From positions 953,001 to 1,017,000 of the forward strand of contig NZ_AP018560.1 of the NCBI RefSeq assembly GCF_003967035.1: a DNA stretch of 64,000 nt. The letters run 5' to 3'. Every line of letters starts with the position of its first letter. The first letter of the stretch is position 1. Origin of the DNA: Aerosticca soli (GTDB lineage Bacteria > Pseudomonadota > Gammaproteobacteria > Xanthomonadales > Rhodanobacteraceae). The notes under the pieces are model-generated. The model was given only the letters and a program-made list of their open reading frames with translations. It was not told the origin of the DNA and did no database searches. Position numbers and translations under genes: made by a program. Shown piece by piece: positions 3,359 to 26,406 of the stretch.

Positions 3359-4150
3359 TTAGACAAAGCGCAGTCCGATCGTGCCCATGCCGTGCACATG
3401 CAGGGTGACGTTGTCGCCGGCGGCGACCGCGATGGCGGCGGTGATCGCCCCGGAGAGAATCACGCTCCCGGCCGGAATTTCTTCGTCGCGCTCGGCGAGC
3501 AGGTTGGCCAGCAGTGCCACGCTGGCCGCCGGGTGGTTGAGCACGGCTGCGCCGACGCCCATCTCGGCCACTTCGCCGTTCTTTTCCAGCACCACGCCCA
3601 CCGTGCGCAGGTCGAGCGTGCGCGGATCGGCGATCGCGCCGCCGGCGACGAAACGCGAGGACGAGGAGTTGTCGGCCACCACGCTCGGCAGGTCGAAGCG
3701 GAAGTTCTCGTAGCGGCTGTCGATGATCTCCAGTGCCGGCATCACGAAGGCGGTGGCCGCCAGCACCTGGCCGACGTGGCAGCCCGGGCCACGCAGCGGT
3801 GCCGAGGTCATGAAGGCGATTTCCGCCTCCACCTTGGGATGAATCAGGCGACGGGTGTCGACGGCGCTGCCCTCGGACACCTGGAAATCATCGGCGAGAA
3901 AGCCGTAGGTGGGCGAGGACACGCCCATCTGGCGCATCTTGGCCTGCGAGGTGAGCCCCATCTTGAGGCCGACGATGCGGTGGCCGCGCGCCTCCTTGCG
4001 CCGACGGATGGCCCACTGGATGGCATAGGCATCGTCCAGGTCGAGCGCCGGGTAGCGGTCGGTGATCTTGGTCACCTCGCGCGCTTCCATCTCGGCCGTC
4101 TCCAGGTGCTCGGCGAGCGCATCGATGGTGGCTGCGTCCAGCGTGCTCAT
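3359..4150 (-). CDS. dmpH: 4-oxalocrotonate decarboxylase
   Basis: Decarboxylates the keto form of 2-hydroxymuconate (4-oxalocrotonate) to 2-oxopent-4-enoate in the dehydrogenase branch of catechol meta-cleavage. It is 263 aa, the family length. [27 protein letters not shown] and [12 protein letters not shown] match the decarboxylase rather than the paralogous hydratase DmpE. The start ATG overlaps the dmpG stop by 4 bp, showing translational coupling. DmpH normally acts in complex with DmpE, and no dmpE is visible here, so the partner must be encoded elsewhere or this protein would have to serve a wider role. Confidence 0.9.
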
Positions 4151-12533: not shown

Positions 12534-13160
12534 TCATGCGGGCGTTCTTCCCGACGAAGACTCGCGCGTGCCGGCCCAGCGGTAGGCGAGGCCGGCGTCG
12601 ATGCCGAACAAGTCGAGTACGCGGCCGATGGTGTGGTCGACCATCTCGGTGAGCGTGGCCGGCTGCGCATAGAACGCCGGCACTGGCGGCATGCAGATGG
12701 CACCCATCTCGGTGGCGGCGAGCATGTTGCGCAAATGCCCGAGATGCAGCGGTGTCTCGCGCACCAGCAGTACCAGTCGGCGCCGTTCCTTGAGCACCAC
12801 GTCGGCGGCGCGGGCGATGAGGTTGTCGCCGGTGCCGCTGGCCACGCAGGCCAGCGTGCGCGCCGAGCACGGGGCGATCACCATCCCCTCGGTGCGGAAC
12901 GAGCCGCTGGCGATGGCCGCGCCGACATCGCGCTCGTCGTGCACCACGTCGGCCAGCGCGCCCAGCTGGCGGCGATCTAGGCCGAGCTCGGTGGCGAGAT
13001 TGATGTAGCCCGCGCGGCTGGTCACCAGGTGCGTTTCCCAGCCCGCCTGACCGCGCATGGCGGCCAGCAGCCGGGTGCCGTAGCACGCACCCGAGGCGCC
13101 GGTGATGGCGACCACCAGCCGCTTTGGCACGCTGCCCGGTTGCGGATGCGCGTTCAGCAT
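12534..13160 (-). CDS. UbiX-type flavin prenyltransferase (decarboxylase B subunit)
   Basis: Makes prenylated FMN, the cofactor of UbiD-type decarboxylases. It is about 208 aa. Motifs: VVAITGASGACYG (FMN binding), APCSARTLACVASG, and RETPLHLGHLRNM followed by PPVPAFY. The ATG at 13160 is favoured because it places the Rossmann strand at the usual distance; a GTG at 13223 would overlap the preceding gene by 17 bp. It corresponds to VdcB/BsdB of three-gene hydroxyarylate decarboxylase operons. Here it is separated from the C and D subunit genes by a flavoprotein gene. Confidence 0.9.
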   Translation of the reverse strand: MLNAHPQPGSVPKRLVVAITGASGACYGTRLLAAMRGQAGWETHLVTSRAGYINLATELGLDRRQLGALADVVHDERDVGAAIASGSFRTEGMVIAPCSARTLACVASGTGDNLIARAADVVLKERRRLVLLVRETPLHLGHLRNMLAATEMGAICMPPVPAFYAQPATLTEMVDHTIGRVLDLFGIDAGLAYRWAGTRESSSGRTPA

Positions 13161-13206
13161 GACGCCAGCTTCGTTCCATGCAGGGCCAGAGGTGACGAGT
13201 GAGGTT

Positions 13207-14640
13207 TCATGCGGGCGTGCCACTCAGGACGCCGCTGGGATCGAGCGCGGCGGCGAGCAGCGCATGGACATGGGCCTGACCGGTGCCGGCGAGTCTGGCT
13301 CGCGCCGGCTCCAGCACGCCGTCGTCGGTATGGCTGGGCGCATAGCCGGCCTGGGCCCAGGCGGCGAGGATGTCGCCGGCGGTGGTGCGCGCTCGCTCCA
13401 GCGAGGCGGCGTCCTGCCAGGGCAGTTCGACCTTGGCCAGCAGCGCCCGCCAGCAGAGCTGGAACTCGATCCGCGGCGGCAGTCCGGCCGCATCCAGCAT
13501 CCGGCGCGCCAGCGCCGCCATGGCGCGGGCATCGTCGCCATGGATGCCGCCGACCGCGGCGATCTCGAGCTTCTCGCCGGCCATCGGCGGCATCGCATCG
13601 GCGGACACCTCACCGCGCATCATGTGTGCGCGCGCGGCGAGTGGCGGATGCCCCATGGCGACGTCGTCGATGAGGCGCAGGTGCGCGCCAGGCACGGCAC
13701 CCAGCTGCGCCTGCACCATGCCCCAGAGCAGATCCACGTCGTCCGGCAGACCGTAGAGCGCGCCGAACACGTTCCAGTCGCCCAGGTCCGCCTCGTCCGC
13801 GTCGCCGGGCACGTAGGCGGCTTCCCAAGCCTTGCTGGCCACGGCCACCGGATGGGGCAGGATGCGGTTGATGGACAGAGGGCGCAGGATGTCCATCGCC
13901 GCTTCCAGCGCGGCCTCGTCGCGCAGGCTGGCCATGAACGGCAGGCAACGTGGCGCGGCCGGCATCAGCCACAGGCCGACCTTGGTGACGATGCCCAGCC
14001 GCGACTGCATGAACAGGCCGTCGTTGACCGGACCGAAACCCCACTTGAAGAGCTGAAACATATTGCTCTTGCTCATCGCGCCCATGCCGGTGCGCACCAG
14101 CAGGCCATCGGCGAGCATGACCTCGAGGCCGCACTGCATCAGCGCGCGGTCGCCGTAGGGCGTGTAGCCGTAGCGACGGGCCAGGATGTCGCCGGCGACC
14201 GAGGCGCGCGGATCGCGGCCGGCGTCGACAAGAAACGGCAGCTTGCGCGTGCCGAGTTCGGCGGCCAACTGCGCGTGGCTCACGCCCGGTTCGACCAGCG
14301 CGGTGGCGTTGGCCGCGTCGATGTCGACGATGCGGTTCATGTGTGCGAAGTCGATCAGCCAGACGTCGCGTGTCACCGGCCCGGGCAGGCCGCAGCTGTT
14401 CCACAGCGTGACGCCCTCCTGCCGGGCCTGGGCGAGGATGTCGCCCAGCGCGCCGGTGGAATCCGGACGTACCACGCGGGCCAGCCGGTGGCTGCCGAGC
14501 AGGTGCCGGTAGCGCAGCGACCAGGCTCGCGCGAGGGCATCGTCGCCGTTCACCGGCGCGACTGGCGGTGCGTTTGCGGCAGTTGCGGACTGGGCCACGG
14601 GGCGTTCTCCTCGGTGCATGCGCAAGGGGCCGTCAGCCAT
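13207..14640 (-). CDS. Degenerate VAO/PCMH-type flavoprotein paralogue
   Basis: 477-aa paralogue of the alkylphenol dehydrogenase encoded at 18168. The two share MNRI, VEPGVS, GYTPYG, LMQCG and KWG-GP-DGLF-QS-LGIVT segments. Features expected of a working VAO-family enzyme are missing. The FAD-pyrophosphate loop STGKN is replaced by NSCGLPGPVTRD (about 81-92). The covalent-flavin His region reads WRALLAKV instead of R-x-x-HHI. The EYRTH phenol-binding segment is absent. It lies between the UbiD D-subunit gene and ubiX and overlaps the former by 8 bp. It may be a structural partner, a non-covalent flavoprotein or a decaying copy. Confidence 0.75.
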   Translation of the reverse strand: MADGPLRMHRGERPVAQSATAANAPPVAPVNGDDALARAWSLRYRHLLGSHRLARVVRPDSTGALGDILAQARQEGVTLWNSCGLPGPVTRDVWLIDFAHMNRIVDIDAANATALVEPGVSHAQLAAELGTRKLPFLVDAGRDPRASVAGDILARRYGYTPYGDRALMQCGLEVMLADGLLVRTGMGAMSKSNMFQLFKWGFGPVNDGLFMQSRLGIVTKVGLWLMPAAPRCLPFMASLRDEAALEAAMDILRPLSINRILPHPVAVASKAWEAAYVPGDADEADLGDWNVFGALYGLPDDVDLLWGMVQAQLGAVPGAHLRLIDDVAMGHPPLAARAHMMRGEVSADAMPPMAGEKLEIAAVGGIHGDDARAMAALARRMLDAAGLPPRIEFQLCWRALLAKVELPWQDAASLERARTTAGDILAAWAQAGYAPSHTDDGVLEPARARLAGTGQAHVHALLAAALDPSGVLSGTPA

Positions 14641-14869
14641 GGCGCTTGGCGGGCGGGATGTTGTAGCGGTACTGCTCGGGATGGTCCGGATCGACGGCGA
14701 AGTCCGGATCGCGCAGCGCCGGATCGATGGTCTCGGCAGGCTCGCTGTCGCGCCAGGTAAAGGCGCAACGCGGGCAGTGGTAGACCGTCCAAACGACGAC
14801 GCCGTCCTCGCGGCCCTGGTGAACCGCGGCGGCGTCCTGTTTGCGGCAACGGGGGCAGGTGGCGTTCAT
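14633..14869 (-). CDS. Non-oxidative hydroxyarylic acid decarboxylase, subunit D
   Basis: 78-aa small subunit of the VdcD/BsdD family. It has two CxxC pairs (CPRC at 5-8 and CPRC about 32-35, the second in YHCPRCAFTWR), then the family tail with PDFAVDP. The start overlaps the stop of the UbiD gene by 4 bp, so the two are coupled. Subunit D is found only with decarboxylases of hydroxybenzoate, vanillate or related phenolic acids and not with ubiquinone UbiD. It therefore narrows the substrate class of the neighbouring enzyme. Confidence 0.9.
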   Translation of the reverse strand: MNATCPRCRKQDAAAVHQGREDGVVVWTVYHCPRCAFTWRDSEPAETIDPALRDPDFAVDPDHPEQYRYNIPPAKRHG

Positions 14870-16344
14870 GCGTTGGCCTCCTGGCGCAGGCGGGCCAGGC
14901 GTCGGGCGAGCTCGTCGATCAGCGGGCCGCTCGGCGGGCGGACCAGCTTGGCGTCGCTGCCCATCGGGTCGGGCGGCATGAAACTGGTGGCGTCGATGAT
15001 GAGGTGATGGCCCTTGCCGGGCACCTCGGCGGCCGGGTCGATGATGATCATCGCGGTGTTGGGAATGACGATGATGTCGTTGGCGCGGGTGCGGGTGGAC
15101 AGCGCCCACATCACCTCGTTGAGGTCGAACGGGTCGACGTCGGCGTCGACCATGATCAGGTTCTTGAGGTACATGAGTCCGTGTGGCGTGCCGAGCGCGC
15201 GCATCGCCACCGACTTGGCGAAGCCGGCAAAGCGGTTACGCACGGCGACGATGGCCGTCAGGCCGTGCTGATACAGCGCATTGACCGCCTCGACCTCGGG
15301 AAACTCCTTCTTGAGCGCGGCGTAGATCGGCGCGGAGGTGTTGAGCCCGATCAGGGTGTCGTGTTCGGTCCATTTGCCGCCGATGTAGAGATTCTCGAAG
15401 ATCGGTGCGCGGCGGTGGGTGAGCCGGGTCACCCGGAACAGCGGCACGCGGCGGACGCCCGAATAGCTGCCCGGGAATTCGCCGAATGGTCCTTCGAAGG
15501 CGCGCTGGTTGGGCAGCAGCTCGGCTTCGATCACGAATTCGCTGTCGGCCAGGATGTCCACGCCGTTGCCCGAGCGGGTGAGCCGCAGCGGTACGCCCAT
15601 CAGCTGCGAGGCGTAGGCGTATTCGGATTCGTCGTAGGGAATCGGCGTGCCGGCCAGCATGGCGATGGCCGGGTGGTTGCCGAGCATGATCGCGATGCGC
15701 AGCGGCTTGCCCTGTTCCTCCGCGGCCATGATGTGGCGGCCCATGTCGTGCGAGGGCACCGAGAGCAGGGTCAGCGTGTCCGGCCCGTGGATCTGGATGC
15801 GGTAGATGCCGACGTTCTGCTTGCCGAAGTGTTCCGGATCGTTCGGGTCGCGACTGACTACCGCGGCCTTGGCCAGGTAGAAGCCGCCGTCGTAGGCATT
15901 GGTGCGATAAAGCGGAATATGCGCGTAGAGGTTGATGTCGTGTTCGACCACCACCTCGCACACCGGCGCCTGCGCGGGGTCGACATGTTCCAGTTGCGGC
16001 CGGTCGCAGCCCCAGCGGCCGATCATCTCGTAGAACAGTTCCTTGACCGAGGTGCCCTTGGGCTTGCCGAGCAGCAGGGCAAGGTTGGTGAAGCTGCCAT
16101 GCACGCCGTTGACCACGCGCAGGCCGGGATAGCCGCGCACATGTTCGAACAGCACCGCCGGGCCGTGTAGCGGGTCACGGCCGGCGGCCTGGGTGATGTT
16201 GCGGATGTCCGGCTCCGGCAGCACCGGTTCGGGCCAGCGTACGCACTGGCCGTGCTTGCCGAGCAGGTCAAGGAAATCGCGCAGGCCGCCGATGCGTGGC
16301 GAGGCGCTGGCGCCTGGTGGCAGTGCAGTCTTGCCGTCCATCAT
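14866..16344 (-). CDS. UbiD-family hydroxyarylate decarboxylase (C subunit)
   Basis: Prenyl-FMN-dependent reversible decarboxylase, most likely of 4-hydroxybenzoate or vanillate type, giving a phenol and CO2. It is 492 aa. The conserved Arg182 lies in IYRIQ, and the EGPFGEFPG motif (284-292) carries the two catalytic-site Glu of this family. ATG 16344 (a double ATGATG) overlaps the aldehyde dehydrogenase stop. Placed directly after the aldehyde dehydrogenase and followed by subunit D, it should convert the 4-hydroxybenzoate made upstream into phenol, the substrate of the phenol hydroxylase in the same cluster. Confidence 0.9.
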   Translation of the reverse strand: MMDGKTALPPGASASPRIGGLRDFLDLLGKHGQCVRWPEPVLPEPDIRNITQAAGRDPLHGPAVLFEHVRGYPGLRVVNGVHGSFTNLALLLGKPKGTSVKELFYEMIGRWGCDRPQLEHVDPAQAPVCEVVVEHDINLYAHIPLYRTNAYDGGFYLAKAAVVSRDPNDPEHFGKQNVGIYRIQIHGPDTLTLLSVPSHDMGRHIMAAEEQGKPLRIAIMLGNHPAIAMLAGTPIPYDESEYAYASQLMGVPLRLTRSGNGVDILADSEFVIEAELLPNQRAFEGPFGEFPGSYSGVRRVPLFRVTRLTHRRAPIFENLYIGGKWTEHDTLIGLNTSAPIYAALKKEFPEVEAVNALYQHGLTAIVAVRNRFAGFAKSVAMRALGTPHGLMYLKNLIMVDADVDPFDLNEVMWALSTRTRANDIIVIPNTAMIIIDPAAEVPGKGHHLIIDATSFMPPDPMGSDAKLVRPPSGPLIDELARRLARLRQEANA

Positions 16345-17810
16345 GCCGTGCCTCCGGTCTGGATGGTGACCCACTTCCATTCGGTGCAGGTGTCGATGTC
16401 GACCTCGGTGCCTTCGCGACCGAAACCCGAATCGCCGACGCCGCCGAACGGCACGTGCGGCTCGTCGTGCAGGGTGGGCGCGTTGACGTGCACCATGCCG
16501 GCATGGGCCTGCGCGGCGAAGGCCAGTGCGCGGTCGAGGTCGCGGGTGTAGATCGCGGCGCTCAGGCCGTAGCGGCTGTCGTTGGCCTGGGCGAGTGCCT
16601 GCTCGAAACCGTCGACGGGGTAGACCGCCGCCACCGGACCGAAGGTCTCCTCGGCGTAGCAGGTCATTTCCGGCCGTACGCCGGCGAGCACGGTCGGCTG
16701 GCAGCGATGGCCGTTCCAGCCGCCGCCGGTGACCAGCGTGGCGCCCTTGCCGAGCGCATCCTCGATGTGGGCGCGCACGCGTTCGCGCTGGCGCGGCGAG
16801 ATCAGCGGGCCAATCACCGTTTCCGGCCGGCGCAGGTCACCCATCGGCAGTGCCTCCGCGGCCGCCTGGAAGCGCTCCAGGAAGGCCGCGTACAGCGGGC
16901 GTTCGACCAGGATGCGGCTGGAGGCCATGCATACCTGGCCCTGATACAGGAACATGCCCATCACCGCGCCGTGCACGGCCGCGTCGAGATCGGCATCGGC
17001 GAGCACGACGAGCGGATTCTTGCCGCCCAGTTCCAGCGTCACCCGTTTCATCTGCGCGCCGGCGATGGCGGCGATGTGCTTGCCCACCCGCGACGAGCCG
17101 GTGAAGTTGACCAGCCGCACCAGCGGATGGCCGGTCAGCGCATCGCCGATCTCGTGGCCGAAGCCGGTCACGAGATTGACCACGCCGGGCGGCAGGCCCG
17201 CCTCGTGGTAGAGCCGGGCGACCCGCGCGGCCAGCATCGGCGCTTCCTCCGAAGGCAGCAGCACTACGGCGTTGCCAGTGGCCAGCGGCACCGCGGTGAG
17301 CTTGATGCTCTTGATCAACGGCACGTTGAAAGGCGTGATCGCGGCGACCACGCCCAACGGCTGGCGCAGCGACAACGAAAGCCGCCCCGGCACGTCCGAA
17401 GGCAACGTCTGGCCGCTCGTGCGTCGCGCCGCGCCGGCGGCGGCGCGCAGATAGCCGACCGCCATCGCCACCTCGAAACGCGCCTTGGCCAGCGGCGAGC
17501 CGACCTCGTCGATCAGGATGTCGATGAACGCCTGCGCCTCGGCCTCAAGGCGCTCGGCGGCCTTGATCAGCCAGGCCTCGCGTTCGCGCGCGAGGGTGTG
17601 TCGATAGCCGTCGAATGCCTGCTGCGCTGCACGCACGGCCCGGTCCACGTCGACGGCAGCGCCGTGTGCGGCCCTGGCATAGAGCGCATCGTCCTCGGGA
17701 TTGCGGTCGTCGAAATAGCGGCCATCGGCGGCGGGCGCCCAGCGGCCGCCGATGAAGCAGTCCACGGTGGGGACGGCGGTTTGGGCATGTGCGGCTTGCG
17801 GCATGGGCAT
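16341..17810 (-). CDS. Aromatic aldehyde dehydrogenase (4-hydroxybenzaldehyde/vanillin type)
   Basis: NAD(P)-dependent dehydrogenase, 489 aa, with general base Glu260 in ELGGKNP and catalytic Cys294 in GQVCMAS. It belongs to the benzaldehyde/vanillin dehydrogenase group (FNVPLIKSIK, HVNAPTLHDEPHVPFGG). ATG 17810 is preceded by AAGGA. In Pseudomonas p-cresol clusters the equivalent gene is pchA, oxidising 4-hydroxybenzaldehyde to 4-hydroxybenzoate. Its place between the flavocytochrome genes and the UbiD gene supports that role. Confidence 0.88.
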   Translation of the reverse strand: MPMPQAAHAQTAVPTVDCFIGGRWAPAADGRYFDDRNPEDDALYARAAHGAAVDVDRAVRAAQQAFDGYRHTLAREREAWLIKAAERLEAEAQAFIDILIDEVGSPLAKARFEVAMAVGYLRAAAGAARRTSGQTLPSDVPGRLSLSLRQPLGVVAAITPFNVPLIKSIKLTAVPLATGNAVVLLPSEEAPMLAARVARLYHEAGLPPGVVNLVTGFGHEIGDALTGHPLVRLVNFTGSSRVGKHIAAIAGAQMKRVTLELGGKNPLVVLADADLDAAVHGAVMGMFLYQGQVCMASSRILVERPLYAAFLERFQAAAEALPMGDLRRPETVIGPLISPRQRERVRAHIEDALGKGATLVTGGGWNGHRCQPTVLAGVRPEMTCYAEETFGPVAAVYPVDGFEQALAQANDSRYGLSAAIYTRDLDRALAFAAQAHAGMVHVNAPTLHDEPHVPFGGVGDSGFGREGTEVDIDTCTEWKWVTIQTGGTA

Positions 17811-17829
17811 GTTCCTTGAGGATGTGTCG

Positions 17830-18171
17830 TCAGTGGATGGCCGACTTTGGCCTGGCCAGATAGGCGGCGATGTCGGCGAGGTCGCGATCGTCGAGCTCAC
17901 TCGGGCGGAACGGCGGCATCAGGCGCAGCCCGTGCCGCACCACCACCTCGACGTACGCGGCCGGCACTTCGCCGCGCTGCGCGAGCACGGCGTCGTGCGC
18001 GTCGTAGCGGCGTTCGAGGCCCATCGTGCCCGGATGCCCGGGACCTGCGGCGTGGCAGGGCGCGCAGCGGTAGGCGAACAGCGCTTCGCCATGATGCGGG
18101 TCGGCGGCGGCCGCCTCGGCAGCGGCGGCGAAGAAGATCAAGCCGCCAAGCAGGATGCGGACGGCATTCAT
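17830..18171 (-). CDS. pchC: Cytochrome c subunit of 4-alkylphenol dehydrogenase
   Basis: Small periplasmic c-type cytochrome (113 aa) that takes electrons from the flavoprotein subunit. A signal peptide (residues 1-23, ending AEAAAADP) is followed by C36-A-P-C39-H40 for haem attachment and Met85 in GLRLMPPF as sixth ligand. The start overlaps the flavoprotein stop by 4 bp. The gene pair is the signature of a PchCF/EhyAB-type flavocytochrome. Naming it pchC is by context; a 4-ethylphenol or eugenol hydroxylase cytochrome would look much the same. Confidence 0.85.
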   Translation of the reverse strand: MNAVRILLGGLIFFAAAAEAAAADPHHGEALFAYRCAPCHAAGPGHPGTMGLERRYDAHDAVLAQRGEVPAAYVEVVVRHGLRLMPPFRPSELDDRDLADIAAYLARPKSAIH

Positions 18172-19721
18172 GCGCGCATCCTCCGCGGCCACACGCCCAT
18201 CTTGCCCGGCGCCATGATGCCCCCGGGGTCCAGGGCGTCGCGCACGCGTTCGTTGAGCCGGCGCAATGCGTGGTCGTTCCAGTCGTAGGTAGCGGCGATC
18301 TGGTCCATGAAGTCCAGGTGCGTGCGGTACTCGCCGAAGCCTTGCGCCGCCGCGTCGGCCACGATCTCGCCGAACACCTGGTGCGCGCGCTCGCGCTCCT
18401 GCGGGTCGGTGCGGTCGAAGATGAGCATGAAGATGTGGTGCTGGTCGCGCCAGCCGATCAGGAACTCGCCGATGTAGTCGAAGCCGCGTGCCTCCACCTT
18501 GTCCTTGATGAGGTGGTAGAGCCGCACCGCATCGTCGCCGGTGGGGGCGGACATCGGCGAGAAGTCGATGTGCGCGCCGGAGCCGATCCAGTTCATGAGC
18601 GAGTATTCGGTCATGTTGGGGATGCCGCGCATCAGTTTGGCGCGGTATTCCCAGGCTGTATCGCCGGGGCGGTCCGTGTAGAAGCGCGCGCCCTTCACCT
18701 TGCCCAGCGCGTCGCGGACCACCGACCAGCTGCGCTCAATCATCGGCGGCGGTCCATACAACGCGGCATAGAAGTTCCAGGCGCCGATGTCCAGGTCCGC
18801 CATCAGCTTGCGGCGCACCGACGGTGGCAGCGGGCCCTTGCCACCGTAGTACTGCGCCTTGGTCACCCGGGTCGCGGCCTCCCACAGCAACTCCACCGAG
18901 GTCGCGCCGTTGGGGATCACCATGTTGAGCTTGAGCGGGCGGATCGCCTCGGTGAGGTCGTGCAGGGCGTCCTCGTCGGGAAAGGTCACCATGAAGGGCC
19001 GGTAGCCCGGCGGCTCGGGCATCAGCCACACGCCCAGCCGGGTGACGATGCCGAGCCCGGACTGGGTGAACAGGCCATCGATCCACGGTCCCGCGCCCCA
19101 TTTGTACAGCTGACTGGCGCGTGCGCCTGGCAGCGCGCCAGTGGCGGTGTCGACCACGGTGCCATCGGCCAGCACCACCTGCATGCCGCACTGCATGGTC
19201 AGGTGTTCGCCATAAGGGGTATAGCCGGCGCCGTGGTCGAGCAGGTTGCCGAGCACACTGCCCCAGCCCGGTGCCGCGCAATCGATCCAGAGCGGAATGT
19301 CGTGTTCCTTGAGGTAGCGGTACAGGTCGAAATAGCTGACGCCGGGTTCGACCACCGCGTAGCCGTCGCGTGCGTTGACTTCGATGATGCGGTTCATGCG
19401 CGCCAGATCGAGCACCACGTAACCGCTCTTGCGCGGGGCCGGGCCGCCGTAGGCGTAGTTCTTGCCCGTCGACACCGGCCACAGCGGAATGCCGTATTCG
19501 CGCGCCACCTTGAGCACCGCCTGGATTTCCTCCACCGAATGGGGAGCAACCGCAGCCGCGGGCGTGTGTGCGGCATCCTCGGTGGTCGAATACGGGTCGA
19601 GGTAGCTGCTGAGCGCGGTCTCGTCGGCATAGACATAGGTTTTGCCGACCGCCTGGCGGAAGCCGGCCAGCGCCTGGCTGAACGCGGCGGCGGAAAGTCC
19701 TGGGGGAAGCGTGGCTGGCAT
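18168..19721 (-). CDS. pchF: 4-cresol/4-alkylphenol dehydrogenase (hydroxylating), flavoprotein
   Basis: VAO/PCMH-family flavoprotein, 517 aa. It oxidises the side chain of para-alkylphenols through a quinone methide and water addition. The FAD loop PVSTGKNYAYGG is at 82-93, YTPYG near 167-171, and RDQHHI at 425-430 aligns with the covalent-FAD His segment of vanillyl-alcohol oxidase. GEYRTH at 464-468 carries the Tyr465/Arg466 pair that binds the phenolate. The catalytic Asp loop of VAO (IDVPD) reads IDCAA, which fits a dehydrogenase using a cytochrome rather than an oxidase. Substrate could be p-cresol, 4-ethylphenol or eugenol. Confidence 0.85.
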   Translation of the reverse strand: MPATLPPGLSAAAFSQALAGFRQAVGKTYVYADETALSSYLDPYSTTEDAAHTPAAAVAPHSVEEIQAVLKVAREYGIPLWPVSTGKNYAYGGPAPRKSGYVVLDLARMNRIIEVNARDGYAVVEPGVSYFDLYRYLKEHDIPLWIDCAAPGWGSVLGNLLDHGAGYTPYGEHLTMQCGMQVVLADGTVVDTATGALPGARASQLYKWGAGPWIDGLFTQSGLGIVTRLGVWLMPEPPGYRPFMVTFPDEDALHDLTEAIRPLKLNMVIPNGATSVELLWEAATRVTKAQYYGGKGPLPPSVRRKLMADLDIGAWNFYAALYGPPPMIERSWSVVRDALGKVKGARFYTDRPGDTAWEYRAKLMRGIPNMTEYSLMNWIGSGAHIDFSPMSAPTGDDAVRLYHLIKDKVEARGFDYIGEFLIGWRDQHHIFMLIFDRTDPQERERAHQVFGEIVADAAAQGFGEYRTHLDFMDQIAATYDWNDHALRRLNERVRDALDPGGIMAPGKMGVWPRRMRA

Positions 19722-19746: not shown

Positions 19747-20331
19747 TCAGACGGCGGTGAAGACGAAGGAGACCAGGTGGTCTGGACTGCGCGCGGGAAG
19801 CCGCACCGGCGCCAGGCGCGCGGTAACCACGCTCGGCGCAGTAGCGGTGGCGGAACGTGCGCTCATCGGCGGCAGGCAGCGCGCCAGCACTACCGGCCAG
19901 TGCCCGGCGGCGTCGGCCAGCGCGGCGGCGAGGACCGTGGCCGCCGGCCCACCCTCGAGCGTATGCAGCAGACCGGCATCGCCATAGCCGTGGCGGGCGA
20001 TCAGCAACGGGCGCAGGCCGGCGCGCTGCAAGGCCGTCGAGAGCACGAAAAAGGCCGCCGCGCCGGTGAGACCGCTCACCGCGGCTGGAGACGCCTGTCG
20101 GCACCAGTCGAGCAGCACGCCGGGATCATGGCCGGGCGCGCGGCGCACGCCGCCCGGGTACGCGGCCGCAAAAGCATCCGCATCGGCGCCCTCCGCCGCG
20201 AGCCACACAGCGGAAGATGAAGACGGCCCTGTGACGCCGGGCAGGCCGACATGGGCGGCCATGGCAGGCAACATGGGCCAGGCCGCCCATGCCGCGGTGG
20301 CCTTGATCACGTTTCGACGACTCCACGGCAT
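19747..20331 (-). CDS. Tat-exported protein of unknown function (PchX-like position)
   Basis: 194-aa protein with a twin-arginine-type signal (SRRNVIKATAAWAAW). The body is Ala-rich and alpha/beta-like, without a motif I recognise; it contains VLLDWCRQASPAA and VSGLTGAAAFFVLSTALQRAG. ATG 20331 is preceded by GGAGGTGT. It lies 25 bp upstream of the flavoprotein gene. The P. putida p-cresol operon also carries an uncharacterised gene, pchX, between pchC and pchF. Equivalence is suggested only by context. A role in assembling or exporting the periplasmic flavocytochrome is a reasonable guess. Confidence 0.65.
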   Translation of the reverse strand: MPWSRRNVIKATAAWAAWPMLPAMAAHVGLPGVTGPSSSSAVWLAAEGADADAFAAAYPGGVRRAPGHDPGVLLDWCRQASPAAVSGLTGAAAFFVLSTALQRAGLRPLLIARHGYGDAGLLHTLEGGPAATVLAAALADAAGHWPVVLARCLPPMSARSATATAPSVVTARLAPVRLPARSPDHLVSFVFTAV

Positions 20332-20432
20332 CGGACACCTCCGGAAGGCGCGGCCCCGTGAGGGCCTGCGCGCCACGATGATCGGTCATACATGCCGGCC
20401 GCCCCATCGGGCGGCGCGGCGCTGGCTGCGGG

Positions 20433-21386
20433 TCAGTAGCCTTCGGTATAGACCGCGGTGAAGGCCTCGTGGATCTCCCCGGTGTGGTAGAAGATCGCGC
20501 TGCCGATCTGGTCATCGGTCCAGGTGATCACCGGCATGTCCGGATAGGCGGCGTAGCCCAGGCCGGCGAAGGTCTCGTTGCGGTTGCCGGAGGGGTCGAA
20601 GAAGTAGATCGTCTTGCCGCGGGTGATGCCATGGCGCTGCGGCGTCACATCCATCTTCACTCGGTTCTTGCCCATGACGTCGGCGGCGCGGAGCACGTCG
20701 CCCCAGTCCTCGAGGAAGAACGAGCAATGGTGCAGGCCATTGCAAGGGCCGCCGACGAAGGCGATGTCGTGCGGCTTGATCGACACTGTCATGAAGGCCA
20801 GCGCCTTGACGCTCTTGTCCGGACCGGCCATGAGCTGCTCGGTCAGCCTGAACCCCAGGACGTCGCGAAAGAACGTCTCGTTCTCCACCACCTTGTTCAC
20901 CCCGGCCTCGGGGTTGAGTTCGCACAGCAGCAGTACGTGGTCCAGCCAGTGGGCTCCGGCGCCGCGGATGTCGTCCGGCCACGGATCGGGATTGAGCGTG
21001 CCTACCGAGGTGCCGACGAATTCCTTATCGGCATAGAGGTACATGAGATGGCCACTCGGCATCTTGAAGCGCAACGCGCGACCGCAGTACGGCAATTCGC
21101 CAGGAGCCAGTTCCTCCACCTCGCGTCCGTAGTCGCGGATGCGCGCCTTGATGTCGTCGAGATCGCTGTCGCGTTCGACCTTGTAGGCGACGTGGTTCAT
21201 GCCGGCGCGGTCGGCCGGGCTCAGCATAACCGAGTACTTGTCCCATTCGTCCCAGCATTTCAGGTAGACGTTGCCTTTGTGGTCCTCGTCGGTGGGGACC
21301 ATTCCCAGCACGTCGCGGTAATGACGCAACGCGGCCTGCATGTCGAGCACGCGCAGGTTGATGTGTCCGATTCGCATGACGCCCAT
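20433..21386 (-). CDS. dmpB: Catechol 2,3-dioxygenase (extradiol, XylE/DmpB type)
   Basis: Fe(II) extradiol dioxygenase, 317 aa, cleaving catechol to 2-hydroxymuconic semialdehyde. Two vicinal-oxygen-chelate domains are seen. The iron ligands are His150 (HWLDHVL), His219 or His220 (GLHHCSFF) and Glu271 (GNRNETF), and [14 protein letters not shown] is the family signature. ATG 21386 has GAGGAG 8 nt upstream; an ATG three codons later is possible. It follows dmpQ by 57 bp, as in dmpQB and xylTE. Confidence 0.96.
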
Positions 21387-21822: not shown

Positions 21823-22884
21823 TTAGACCACCTTGAACAGGGGACTCTTGCGCAGCTGACGCGTCGCGTCAGCGGCATCGATGAAGCGCTCGGTATAGAT
21901 GTCACGCTCGAACAGCCGCCCACGCATGAGCGTGGTGATGCACGCATCGACCATCCCGGGTGGGCCGCACAGATACGCCTTGTGTCCCGCGAAACGTCCG
22001 CCAAAGTGCGCGGCGGCCACTTCATGCACATGACCCACCGCACCCTGCCAGTGATCCTCCGGCAGCGGGCGGGACAGGCAGGGTACGTAGTGGAAATGGT
22101 CGTGCGTCTCGGCGAGCGCCTGCAGTTCCTCGTGCAGGTACAGCTCGGCGCGGTGGCGCTGGCCATAGAACAAAGTGATTTGCCGGCGGACGCCCTCGGT
22201 CAACAGGTCGAGCAACATCGAGCGGATGCTGGAAAGTCCGGTGCCGGCAGCGAACAGCAGGATGTTTTCCGGCGCCGACTTGCGTATGAAGAAGCGGCCG
22301 TACGGTCCGGAAACGCGTACGCGGTCGCCGGGCTTCAGATGCTCATGGATGAAGGTCGTCGCCTCGCCGCCTTCCACCCGGCGTACGTGCAGTTCGATCC
22401 GGCGTGACTGTGCCGGTGGATTGGCCAGCGAGAAGGCGCGCGGCAGTGCCACGCCAGGCAGGTGCAGGTTGATGTACTTGCCTGCCTGGAAGGTGAGTGC
22501 ACGATCGAGTTCGATCACCACGCCGCGTGCGGTGGACGAAAGCGCCCTCAATTCGGCCACCGTGCCGATATAGTCGGCGACCGGCTCGACACGGGCGTCG
22601 GGATCGATTTCGACGTCGGCCTCGATGGTGACGTCCGAGCAAGGCTTGGCGACGCAGGCCAGGGTATGGCCTTCGGCACGCTCGAAATCCAACAAGGCAA
22701 AGGAGGACGCATCGCCGTCGTCCACGCTGCCTTCCAGCAATTGGACCTTGCAGGTACCACACAGCCCGTGGCAACAGGCATGGGGCAGATAGATGCCGGC
22801 GCGCAGGGCGGCATCGAGCAGGGTTTGCTGCTCGTCCACCGCCACGTCCTGGCCAAGCGGTTCGATGGTCAATCGGTAAGTCAC
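21823..22884 (-). CDS. dmpP: Phenol hydroxylase reductase component P5
   Basis: NADH-dependent reductase of the multicomponent phenol hydroxylase, 353 aa, exactly the DmpP length. The N-terminal ferredoxin domain has C37-x4-C42-x2-C45 and C77. FAD binding is shown by PRAFSLANPP and NAD binding by GTGLSSIRSM and KAYLCGPPGMV. A GTG at 22884 is chosen since it aligns with the family start TYRLTIEP; the TTG three codons upstream would be only 2 nt from AAGGAG. It follows dmpO by 28 bp. Confidence 0.95.
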   Translation of the reverse strand: MTYRLTIEPLGQDVAVDEQQTLLDAALRAGIYLPHACCHGLCGTCKVQLLEGSVDDGDASSFALLDFERAEGHTLACVAKPCSDVTIEADVEIDPDARVEPVADYIGTVAELRALSSTARGVVIELDRALTFQAGKYINLHLPGVALPRAFSLANPPAQSRRIELHVRRVEGGEATTFIHEHLKPGDRVRVSGPYGRFFIRKSAPENILLFAAGTGLSSIRSMLLDLLTEGVRRQITLFYGQRHRAELYLHEELQALAETHDHFHYVPCLSRPLPEDHWQGAVGHVHEVAAAHFGGRFAGHKAYLCGPPGMVDACITTLMRGRLFERDIYTERFIDAADATRQLRKSPLFKVV

Positions 22885-22912
22885 GCCTTGCAAGTCTCCT
22901 TACCAGGGCAGG

Positions 22913-23272
22913 TCATAGCGCCTGACCGCCCAGGCCGTCGAGGCCCCGGGCGGTGAAACGTAGGAAGGATTTGTGGCCGATGCCCTGGGCGGCCAGACCG
23001 CGCTCCGGGGCGGGTTGGAAGACGGCGCCGTCCAGCTCCCAGTCCACCGCATCCCAGCGCACTCGGGCCCAGTCCGGGTGGCTGCCATACAGGCTGGGCA
23101 GGATCTCTTTCATCACCGCGCCAAAGGGCAGGTCCGGCGGCACCGGCACGCACATCGGAAAGGCAAACAGCAAATGGCGCTGCCATTCCAGATACAGAAG
23201 CTGATTGCCGTGGAAGTGTTCGAGCCGGTCGCGCGGCTCGAATTTGTAGTCATACATCGCGCGTACGGGCAT
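22913..23272 (-). CDS. dmpO: Phenol hydroxylase subunit P4
   Basis: 119-aa small subunit of the hydroxylase oxygenase complex (gamma subunit type). It begins MPVRAMYDYKFEPRDR, typical of the family, and contains QLLYLEWQRHLLFAFP. It is structural in the (L-N-O)2 oxygenase. ATG 23272 follows GAGGTG and lies 9 bp after the dmpN stop. Confidence 0.93.
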   Translation of the reverse strand: MPVRAMYDYKFEPRDRLEHFHGNQLLYLEWQRHLLFAFPMCVPVPPDLPFGAVMKEILPSLYGSHPDWARVRWDAVDWELDGAVFQPAPERGLAAQGIGHKSFLRFTARGLDGLGGQAL

Positions 23273-23281
23273 GGCAGCACC

Positions 23282-24820
23282 TCATTGCGGGGTCAAGGCA
23301 TCGCTGGTGGCGGCGTCCGCGTCCGCCCGTCCCTTCCAGCGCAGCCAATTGATCCGGTCGGGCGAGTCGGCATAGTCCTTGTTGTCCACCCCGTCGACGA
23401 TGCGATACCACTCGAGGACCTGTGAAATCTCGGCACCACCGCAGTGGCCCTGGAAGATCTGATGCACCGGCAGCCAGGCCTGGACGTACTTTTCCGGCTC
23501 CTGGTCGAAGATGTCCTTGCAGCCGTCCGAGCAGAAGTGGTAGCGGTCGCCTTCGTATTGGCTGCTGCGGTGGCACAGGCGGGTGGGGTCGTCCGGTTCG
23601 GTGAAGACCAGCGGGATCTGGCAGACCTGGCACAGCATCGGCAATCCGGCGCTGAACCAGCGGCCATGTTCGGCACGGTAGTTCTTCCAGAACTCCCAGC
23701 GCGGGCGGTAGTAGCGGTCGAACGTCTGTGGGTACTTCGACGACAGCCAATCCAGCTCCTCCGGTTCCGGGATCCAGGTGTGGAAGGCGGTGGCAAAGCC
23801 CACGCCATAGAAGGTGGACCACAGCTGGTGCGAGACGTGGTCCTTCTCCTTGACCGCCACCTCGGCATATTTGGGTGTGCGGATGCCATAACGGGAGAGG
23901 TCCTCGAACAGCGCGCCACCGTTCTGTTCGAAATAGATTTCCCAGGCTTCCTTCCAGGACATCACGCGCTTGGGCAGCATGTAGTCCATCATCATCGAGA
24001 CCAGGCTGAGCAGCCGATAGCTGCGCCAGAACCATTTGTCCAGCCAGCGCTGGACCACCGGTACGTTGCGCTCGTCCTGCTCGAGCATGAACTTGATCAC
24101 TTCCAGCCCCAGGGTCATGTGCCGGGATTCGTCGGACTGGGCGGAAAAGCCGAAGGTGACCGTGGCCATGTCGCCGTTGTAGGCGGCCCCGGACATGAAC
24201 GGCATGAACAGCAGATTGGTCAGTACGTATTCGAAGCTGAAAGAGATCGCGGCGACGAATTCGAACGGTCCGGACGAATGCACGTCGTCGATCCACGACT
24301 TGGGCACCGAGAGATACCAGACGCGTTCGAACATGTGCGTCCAGTCGTGGAAGCCATGGAAATACTTGTTGTACTGGCTCAGGGTATGGATCTCGGTCTG
24401 CGCGTGGCGCAGCTCGTCGATCGCCTGCATCTGGCAGGCCACCTGCGGGCCGGGGCCGGCAAACTGGCGGCCGATCCGTGCGAAACCGCGATGGGCCTCG
24501 TATTCGAGCGGGGTGACCGCGGTGAGGAAGATCTTCAGCGCGTTGATATAGCGCGCATCGCTGACGTTGAGCTGGCCGTTGTTCTGGGCGAAGGCATCGA
24601 TGATCGCGTAGAGCTTGCGCTCTTTCTCGGCCTGGTACTTCCAATAAGCGTCCACGGTCAGGCGGAACGGATCCTCCCATTGATCCCAGTCATGGATATG
24701 GATGCCTTCGAAAGCAGTCTGCGGATGAATCCGGGACCTTGGCTGGTAACTCGGCTCCCAGGCGAGGTCACGGGTCAGTCGGGTGTATTTCTCGCGCAGA
24801 CTCATGCGTTTGTTGGTCAT
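23282..24820 (-). CDS. dmpN: Phenol hydroxylase large (diiron) subunit P3
   Basis: Catalytic subunit of the bacterial multicomponent monooxygenase, 512 aa, that hydroxylates phenol to catechol. The four-helix diiron site is complete: Glu106 (LEYEAH), Glu136 and His139 (IDELRH), Glu197 (FSFEYV), Glu231 and His234 (SDESRH). A C-terminal zinc-ribbon-like stretch, CQVCQIP with CHRSS and CSDGC, is as in DmpN. ATG 24820 (MTNKRMSLREKY) is preferred over an earlier ATG at 24880 inside the dmpM-dmpN spacer. Same gene order as in Pseudomonas. Confidence 0.97.
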   Translation of the reverse strand: MTNKRMSLREKYTRLTRDLAWEPSYQPRSRIHPQTAFEGIHIHDWDQWEDPFRLTVDAYWKYQAEKERKLYAIIDAFAQNNGQLNVSDARYINALKIFLTAVTPLEYEAHRGFARIGRQFAGPGPQVACQMQAIDELRHAQTEIHTLSQYNKYFHGFHDWTHMFERVWYLSVPKSWIDDVHSSGPFEFVAAISFSFEYVLTNLLFMPFMSGAAYNGDMATVTFGFSAQSDESRHMTLGLEVIKFMLEQDERNVPVVQRWLDKWFWRSYRLLSLVSMMMDYMLPKRVMSWKEAWEIYFEQNGGALFEDLSRYGIRTPKYAEVAVKEKDHVSHQLWSTFYGVGFATAFHTWIPEPEELDWLSSKYPQTFDRYYRPRWEFWKNYRAEHGRWFSAGLPMLCQVCQIPLVFTEPDDPTRLCHRSSQYEGDRYHFCSDGCKDIFDQEPEKYVQAWLPVHQIFQGHCGGAEISQVLEWYRIVDGVDNKDYADSPDRINWLRWKGRADADAATSDALTPQ

Positions 24821-24842
24821 GTTCGGGTTTTCCGGTTGGCGC

Positions 24843-25115
24843 CTAGCGGCGTTCGAGCACGAATTCGTCTTCGTCTTCAAAAATGTTGCCGGAGAGCGAA
24901 ATCAGGCAGATGTGCAGGTCCTGCGGATTCCAGCGGCCGCCGGTCAGGCTTTCCACGGTGGCCCGGCGCAGCACCAGCCGTCCGGGTGCATCGATCTTCA
25001 CCATGCCCGGGTAGTGCTGCACGATGGCATGGCTGTTGTCGGCGGCCAGTGCCTCGACCAGCGGTCGCGCCTCTTCGTTGTTCTGCAGGGCGATGAAAAC
25101 GGTGTTGTTGGTCAT
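24843..25115 (-). CDS. dmpM: Phenol hydroxylase effector subunit P2
   Basis: 90-aa cofactorless regulatory protein that couples electron transfer to oxygen activation in the hydroxylase; family length is 90. It starts TNNTVFIALQNNEEARP and ends in the acidic EDEDEFVLERR. The ATG overlaps the dmpL stop by 4 bp. Confidence 0.95.
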   Translation of the reverse strand: MTNNTVFIALQNNEEARPLVEALAADNSHAIVQHYPGMVKIDAPGRLVLRRATVESLTGGRWNPQDLHICLISLSGNIFEDEDEFVLERR

Positions 25116-26125
25116 GTCGGCTCCTGGTGCGGGACGATGCCGAGCCGGGCGGCGCGTGCGGTCAGGCTTTGGTGCAGTTCCTGCATCACCTCTGGCGCGT
25201 CGTCGGCGAAAGCCTGTTCGGCAAGCGGCAGCAATGCCTCGCGTGCACGGGCACCCCACTGCTCGAGCCAGTCCTCGAGCTGCCGGCGATTGCCGTCCGC
25301 TTCGGCAACCGCTGTCTTGAGCATGGCATCCACCCAGCGCGTGGCTTCGGCATACCATTCGCCCATGAAGCCGGTCAGCATGGCCAATACCGGTCCGTGC
25401 TCGCGCGAGAAGATCGCGGCGAGGCGCTCATACACCAGCGGATAGAGCAGGCCATCGAGAGCAAGGTTCTGCGCCACGAAGAGCTCGAACCAATCCTCGA
25501 TGACCCAGAGGTCCTCGACCAGGCGGCGCAGCGGCTGCCATGCCGGCGCTTGCGTCCACATGGTCTTTGCCGCATCGAGGCTGCTGCCCGTGTTGCCATC
25601 CAGCGCCAGTCCGAGGCGCGACAGGTATTGGGCGATGCCCAGGCGGTCGATGGTGGCGAACATGCTGGCCTGGGTCAGTGCGGCCCCGTAACCAAAGGCA
25701 GTGATGTAGCAGTTGTTGAGATTGGCGCCATATTCGACATGCCGGAGCGGTACCAGTAGCTGCGTGATGCGCTGCTGCTGGGATGCGTCGAGCATCTCCA
25801 GCAGGCGATGCTTTTCGGCAAAGGCGAAATGACTCTCCATCACCTCCTGCTGGCGCGCCCGCGTCTGGATCCAGGTGGCGTAGTAGTACTGCCGGGGATC
25901 CAGAAAGGCATACCAGTCCGCCATCACGATGGCGGTCCTGCGCGGGTCATAAATCTCGTGTTGCGGATCCCACAGCGGCCGGTAATGGAAGATGGTGGTG
26001 CACTGCAGGTCGTAGGTCGCTTCCAGGTAGCGTGAGGCCGGTTTGTCGGCGCCCAGGCGCCGTGCCACATGGCCAAAGGTATGGCGCGAGGGCTCCAGCG
26101 CAGCGGTCTTGATGTCGATACTCAT
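25112..26125 (-). CDS. dmpL: Phenol hydroxylase subunit P1 (beta)
   Basis: 337-aa beta subunit of the diiron hydroxylase. It is homologous to the large subunit but lacks a metal site. The segments RRTAIVMADWYAFLDPRQYYYATW and LRHVEYGANLNN (given here as short parts of the family pattern) identify it. It partners DmpN and DmpO in the oxygenase. It starts 35 bp after dmpK and overlaps dmpM by 4 bp. Confidence 0.94.
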   Translation of the reverse strand: MSIDIKTAALEPSRHTFGHVARRLGADKPASRYLEATYDLQCTTIFHYRPLWDPQHEIYDPRRTAIVMADWYAFLDPRQYYYATWIQTRARQQEVMESHFAFAEKHRLLEMLDASQQQRITQLLVPLRHVEYGANLNNCYITAFGYGAALTQASMFATIDRLGIAQYLSRLGLALDGNTGSSLDAAKTMWTQAPAWQPLRRLVEDLWVIEDWFELFVAQNLALDGLLYPLVYERLAAIFSREHGPVLAMLTGFMGEWYAEATRWVDAMLKTAVAEADGNRRQLEDWLEQWGARAREALLPLAEQAFADDAPEVMQELHQSLTARAARLGIVPHQEPT

Positions 26126-26160
26126 GGGTGCTTAAGGATCCAGACGGGGTCGGTGGGTGT

Positions 26161-26406
26161 TCACAAGCCGGCGGTATGCCATTTACAGCGGCCGGCGAGG
26201 CGTCTTGCCTGTTCCGTGGCATCGAGCAGGGCGGCATCGTGGCGATTGCAGAACTCTTCGAAGGCGCCCGCCGGCAACACCATTTCCAGGTACAGGTCCG
26301 GATCGCCGGGCGAGAACTCGAATTCCACGAAGCCATTGGCATGGCGGCGCAGGACGTGTATCGAGGGCTGCAGGGCGGAAGCTTGCATGGAGGATGTGCG
26401 TGCCAT
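26161..26406 (-). CDS. dmpK: Phenol hydroxylase assembly subunit P0
   Basis: 81-aa protein of the DmpK family, needed for iron loading of the hydroxylase in Pseudomonas. The core FVEFEFSPGDPDLYLEMVLP matches the family. Two in-frame ATGs exist, at 26406 and 26388, neither with a good ribosome site. Since the sigma-54-type promoter would put the transcript start near 26414, the second ATG leaves a more usual leader. First gene of the long minus-strand block. Confidence 0.85.
   Translation of the reverse strand: MARTSSMQASALQPSIHVLRRHANGFVEFEFSPGDPDLYLEMVLPAGAFEEFCNRHDAALLDATEQARRLAGRCKWHTAGL

Follow-up and report, generated by a model that had tools for sequence, protein, structure and literature searches.

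The window, i.e., the whole stretch of 64,000 nucleotides of Aerosticca soli DNA that was analysed, carries between positions 4147 and 26406 a phenol-degradation block (phenol hydroxylase, catechol 2,3-dioxygenase and meta-cleavage genes) that encloses a VAO-decarboxylase operon. The genes given here with coordinates all lie on the minus strand, and the operon is read in the order Tat-type protein, a1, cytochrome c, aldehyde dehydrogenase, VdcC, VdcD, a2 and UbiX. A protein of 209 aa (19747-20376), whose N-terminus bears a twin-arginine motif (SRRNVIK), is encoded upstream of a1 (alpha; 18168-19721), an intact VAO/PCMH-family dehydrogenase with the GAH covalent-His motif, which is 61% identical to the a1 of Rugosibacter and has the vanillyl-alcohol dehydrogenase of Marinicaulis flavus (8s7n) as its closest solved structure. 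The cytochrome c gene (17830-18192; CxxCH) likely starts at the ATG at 18171, which gives a 4-bp overlap with the a1 stop (ATGA); its product has a signal-peptide-like N-terminus, and no signal peptide was evident on a1. An aldehyde dehydrogenase (16341-17900) is followed by VdcC, the UbiD-family subunit of a non-oxidative hydroxyarylic acid decarboxylase (14866-16380; NF041204, 650.3 bits with a cut-off of 650), by the decarboxylase subunit VdcD (14633-14869; NF041205), by a2 (alpha-prime; 13207-14640) and by a UbiX-family flavin prenyltransferase of the VdcB type (12534-13223), beyond which a short-chain dehydrogenase and then a Rieske oxygenase pair are found. The pathway context is provided by a catechol 2,3-dioxygenase (20433-21386) and by multicomponent phenol hydroxylase genes (21823-26406; the scan covered all of them except the ORF at 26161-26406). 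Judging from the gene families, the pathway would run from a 4-alkylphenol to a 4-hydroxybenzaldehyde-type aldehyde, the acid, phenol, catechol and central metabolism. Nothing comparable to the a1/a2 pair was found in the sampled same-family relatives, a comparable a2 gene being absent from 36 of them, which fits a horizontal gain. No further close VAO paralogue was found in the source genome.

The a2 gene reads from ATG to TGA and encodes 477 aa with no internal stop, and its GC content by codon position (0.76/0.51/0.88) is coding-like. Its overlap with the VdcD gene is exactly 8 bp long (ATGGCTGA), and the UbiX gene comes next, so that the description in the initial annotation, an uninterrupted frame embedded between decarboxylase subunit genes, was accurate. 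The alignment that it had noted with the neighbouring dehydrogenase was also recovered: a2 and a1 share 34% identity over 452 aligned columns (E 9e-69), and the alignment of a2 to PchF (1dii) spans residues 84-473. In a Pfam scan a2 matched FAD_binding_4 at 61 bits, half of the a1 score, and FAD-oxidase_C was not found.

The residues required for flavin and phenol binding were then located in an alignment referenced to a1. A seven-residue deletion removes the pyrophosphate loop STGKN (S84-N88 of a1) from a2. In addition, Y91 of a1 (VAO Y108) is replaced by C83, E372 by A349, H384 (VAO H422, the covalent His) by K357, H428 by L401, and Y465/R466 (VAO Y503/R504) by S436/H437, the EYRTH segment being thus replaced; the position of the Tyr384-type covalent residue of PchF is occupied by Met, and the C-terminus is cut short, with K507 of APGK absent. 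Only one active-site Glu (E419 of a1) was found retained among these positions, as E392. The replacement or loss of STGKN, HHI and EYRTH, as originally noted, was confirmed for all three segments, but HHI had been wrongly identified as the site of covalent flavin attachment: in VAO-type enzymes the 8-alpha-histidyl bond is made by the His of GAHIDFSP, and HHI is the catalytic-histidine segment (PchF H436, VAO H466). Both segments are lost in a2. Hence, a2 has neither the FAD pyrophosphate loop (S/T)xG(K/R)Nxx(Y)G of catalytic VAO/PCMH enzymes, nor the phenolate-binding Tyr-Tyr-Arg triad (C83, S436 and H437 instead), nor a covalent-flavin residue (His of the GAH or Tyr384 type), a residue that some genuine members of the family also lack (PMC7617285). 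Among the 60 positions that are at least 95% conserved in a1-type sequences, 13 are lost and 33 kept in a2. The lost sites lie in or beside the loop, in the flavin-facing N159/G164 region, on the covalent-His strand, in the stretch after EYRTH and in the C-terminal segment; the kept ones belong to the general fold, all positions having been assigned by motif and not by coordinates. The flavin-domain scaffold pieces GYTPYGD, MQCG and RTGMG are also conserved, so that a weak non-covalent binding of flavin or of another nucleotide by a2 is possible.

The fold itself appears to be retained. An AlphaFold model of a2 (pLDDT 79, pTM 0.81) superimposed on VAO/PCMH chains with Z 33-37 and an rmsd of 2.5-2.7 over about 435-440 residues, and on PchF (1dii) with Z 34.9 and an rmsd of 2.6 over 434 residues, so that the comparison proposed in the initial annotation predicts a VAO/PCMH fold for a2. 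At the flavin loops the confidence of the model was low, but equally so in the a1 control, and it therefore says nothing about a loss of these loops.

A search of plasmid proteins revealed the same operon, with a loop-less second paralogue after vdcD, on pNL1, pF2, ES2-1 p4, KK22 p1 and the Paraburkholderia plasmids pBN2 and pBN3. A single-sequence scan of genome contigs gave no match, but the a2-only alignment did find matches, and the scan of bacterial genomes with it yielded 80 additional loci. The a2-type sequences recovered from independent loci, the window included, amounted to 61, from alpha-, beta- and gammaproteobacteria and from one MAG labelled as Myxococcota, and the closest relative of the window a2 was at most 38% identical to it. 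None of the 61 retains the G(K/R)N loop, the covalent residue or the Tyr-Arg pair, and almost all terminate before APGK, whereas the paired a1 genes keep the full motif set; the pattern of loss is therefore not due to chance. The loop has been deleted or replaced differently from lineage to lineage, as expected when flavin binding is no longer selected. In two unbiased samples (398 and 369 genomes) the sole a2 genes were that of the window and two others, all of them adjoining a1. One a2-type gene (L127; genome G573, contig C45:14891-16327), which also adjoins a1 and a cytochrome gene, carries a single in-frame TGA; this assembly has 94% completeness and 6% contamination, and the TGA represents an error or a recent decay.

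With the loop columns dropped, the a2 sequences formed one clade (support 100/99, recovered in 100% of the bootstrap trees), although the deep placement within it is unsure because long branches are present. AU tests rejected an origin by local duplication, with p 3.75e-10 for the a1/a2 pair of the window and p 2e-37 for the sphingomonad pairs. Between related pairs with unsaturated dS, from which the window a2 was left out as too divergent, the dN/dS of a2 was 0.06-0.23 (median 0.14), and that of a1 in unsaturated-dS pairs was 0.03-0.14 (median 0.094), a2 evolving about 1.7 times as fast as a1. The selection is thus purifying, and the relaxed selection with frequent frameshifts, which had been named as evidence against a retained function, was not borne out. 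A single clade, purifying selection among the relatives, the universal loss of the flavin and phenol motifs and the retained fold together give good support to the retention of a2 in a non-catalytic role.

The initial annotation had left it open whether such a role would be that of a partner of the dehydrogenase or of the decarboxylase. In 56 loci a2 adjoins a1, and the remaining five are apparently cut by contig ends, so that a2 stands constantly beside a1 and cytochrome c wherever the contig allows. In four loci (L069, L090, L091 and L092) the a1-cytochrome-a2 trio was found, and no VdcC/UbiD homologue was detected in the whole genomes of these four, which were listed without completeness values and two of which are MAGs. 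In L069, from Novosphingobium sp. FKTRR1, one base pair (TGATG) belongs to both the a1 stop and the cytochrome start, the cytochrome and a2 genes overlap by 4 bp (ATGA), and cell-shape (mre) and mismatch-repair (mutL) genes follow, without a decarboxylase. Conversely, L080-L082 carry a1, the cytochrome and VdcC/D but no a2. The trio genomes and L080-L082 together indicate that a2 tracks a1 and the cytochrome rather than the decarboxylase.

A dehydrogenase partner is thereby favoured, but a2 might act on a1 as an assembly or export factor (in flavinylation, folding or Tat hitch-hiking) instead of being a permanent subunit. The lack of an evident signal peptide on a1, the one present on the cytochrome and the Tat-type protein upstream would all suit such a factor, and so would the trio genomes, in which a2 is kept with a1 and the cytochrome only. 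Against it, many a1-cytochrome pairs occur without a2 (e.g., L084, L087, L089 and the plasmid locus L026), which indicates that a1 maturation is generally independent of a2, and a folding role would not need a whole two-domain VAO fold, so that we regard this explanation as unlikely. That a2 assists the VdcBCD decarboxylase as a partner or scaffold, the other role that had been suggested, is less probable still. VdcC, VdcD and UbiX do share the operon with a2, which follows vdcD directly in most loci, in the window with the 8-bp overlap, and the a2 and VdcC distances correlate. The a1 and a2 distances correlated with r 0.93, and in a partial Mantel test the partial r of a2 was 0.31 with a1 and 0.45 with VdcC; this did not separate a1 from VdcC as the partner, and co-inheritance points to neither alone. 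A scaffold of the decarboxylase is nevertheless disfavoured by the four genomes that have a2 with no VdcC/UbiD match and by L080-L082, where VdcC/D and a1 do without it. We know of no VAO-type subunit in the vdcBCD systems of Streptomyces and enterobacteria, and a2 is no defined component of VdcBCD.

It is equally doubtful that a2 binds FAD non-covalently, or another ligand, for an activity of its own or for substrate sensing. The FAD_binding_4 match, the kept GYTPYGD and RTGMG pieces and E392 would agree with it, as would the ability of VAO/PCMH enzymes to bind FAD non-covalently (PMC7617285), but each lineage has deleted or scrambled the pyrophosphate loop in its own way, and essentially no member retains the C-terminal segment of the flavin domain or either of the phenolate-binding residues. 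Finally, that a2 is a decaying duplicate heading for loss is extremely improbable in spite of its faster evolution and of the in-frame TGA in one MAG copy, since 61 full-length or nearly full-length open frames in several classes form one ancient clade with a dN/dS of about 0.14, and a pseudogene was rejected on the open frames and this ratio.

We consider it likely, on the strength of motifs and gene neighbourhood, that a2 is a flavin-free alpha-prime subunit that pairs with a1 in a PCMH-like flavocytochrome. Since it is predicted to be flavin-free, preserves the fold and is in the constant company of a1 and the cytochrome, a2 is best read as the second half of a dimer, the form in which VAO/PCMH enzymes occur, with a substrate chamber where the two subunits meet (PMC7617285). 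FAD would be held by a1, probably at His384, and a1 would oxidise a 4-alkylphenol or a 4-hydroxybenzyl compound at its para side chain and pass the electrons to the adjacent cytochrome c. With its VAO fold kept, a2 would probably replace the second a1 in the dimer, so that the resulting a1-a2-cytochrome complex would have one active site, and a2 could give the substrate chamber at the interface its shape or provide a second docking face for the cytochrome. The aldehyde would then be oxidised to the acid, the acid decarboxylated to the phenol by VdcBCD, and the degradation completed by the phenol hydroxylase and the meta-cleavage pathway. We infer from these observations that a2 lacks FAD, that the heterodimer forms with the proposed stoichiometry and that a1 benefits from it.

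A comparable arrangement has a reported precedent. In 2008, Johannes et al. (J Bacteriol 190:6493) reportedly described the PCMH of Geobacter metallireducens as an alpha-alpha'-beta2 complex, whose paralogous alpha' subunit is said to be without FAD and considered catalytically inactive. By analogy, this alpha' may be the one reported precedent for the role of a2, which, like PcmJ (the Geobacter alpha'), appears as a flavoprotein-subunit paralogue encoded with a1 and a cytochrome c; in a2 the flavin loop is deleted outright, and its gene lies inside a vdcBCD operon. PcmI and PcmJ are cited as homologues from that Geobacter metallireducens study in PMC12724174, and in a literature search on inactive subunits of PCMH no open paper was found that describes the a2 clade. 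PchF of the Pseudomonas putida PCMH (1dii/1diq) resembles a2 in fold and in the cytochrome c of the operon, but it carries covalent FAD (Tyr384) in an alpha2beta2 enzyme, and a2 has neither the flavin nor the phenol site. The nearest solved relatives of a1, the Marinicaulis enzyme and the eugenol hydroxylase-type dehydrogenases, are also dimers with an interface chamber (PMC7617285); they have, however, a single flavoprotein with full motifs, and no a2 was found in the Marinicaulis locus (L089).

More tentatively, this flavin-dead VAO-fold clade, ancient and represented both within several proteobacterial classes and outside them, might serve a hetero-oligomeric phenol dehydrogenase as an obligate subunit with no catalytic function, which would turn a two-site flavocytochrome into a one-site enzyme in which the dead subunit controls the interface chamber or the docking of the cytochrome. 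If so, an oddity of Geobacter would become a widespread design, and heterologous assays of such dehydrogenases without a2 may test an incomplete enzyme. To our knowledge, inactive paralogues that partner active enzymes are familiar in eukaryotes, but few families of them have been followed in bacterial catabolism. The hosts of a2 include organisms named or known as degraders of aromatic hydrocarbons (Cycloclasticus, Rugosibacter, the sphingomonad catabolic plasmids and Paraburkholderia BN5), and the substrates of a1 would, by family, be plant- and oil-derived phenols. Altogether, a2 is conserved and is probably a non-catalytic subunit of the dehydrogenase.

Two further observations concern the surrounding genes. 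In most related operons a Tat-type protein of about 190-210 aa is encoded immediately upstream of a1, with copies in the window (19747-20376, minus strand) and at L019:3563-4135, L020:3056-3685 and L027:8128-8706, and in Sulfuricurvum it adjoins a PchF-like gene. The window and pBN2 copies matched no Pfam family, and the sole match of the pNL1 copy was to the TAT_signal model, below cut-off. This protein could take the flavoprotein, which has no evident signal of its own, along through the Tat system. In addition, another VAO paralogue occurs in operons with VdcC/D at L080:14908-16473, L081:14938 and L133. It keeps the flavin loop and the GAH His, but at the phenol site HH has become IA and YR has become LK; as its motifs read, this enzyme is flavin-intact and its substrate site is altered.
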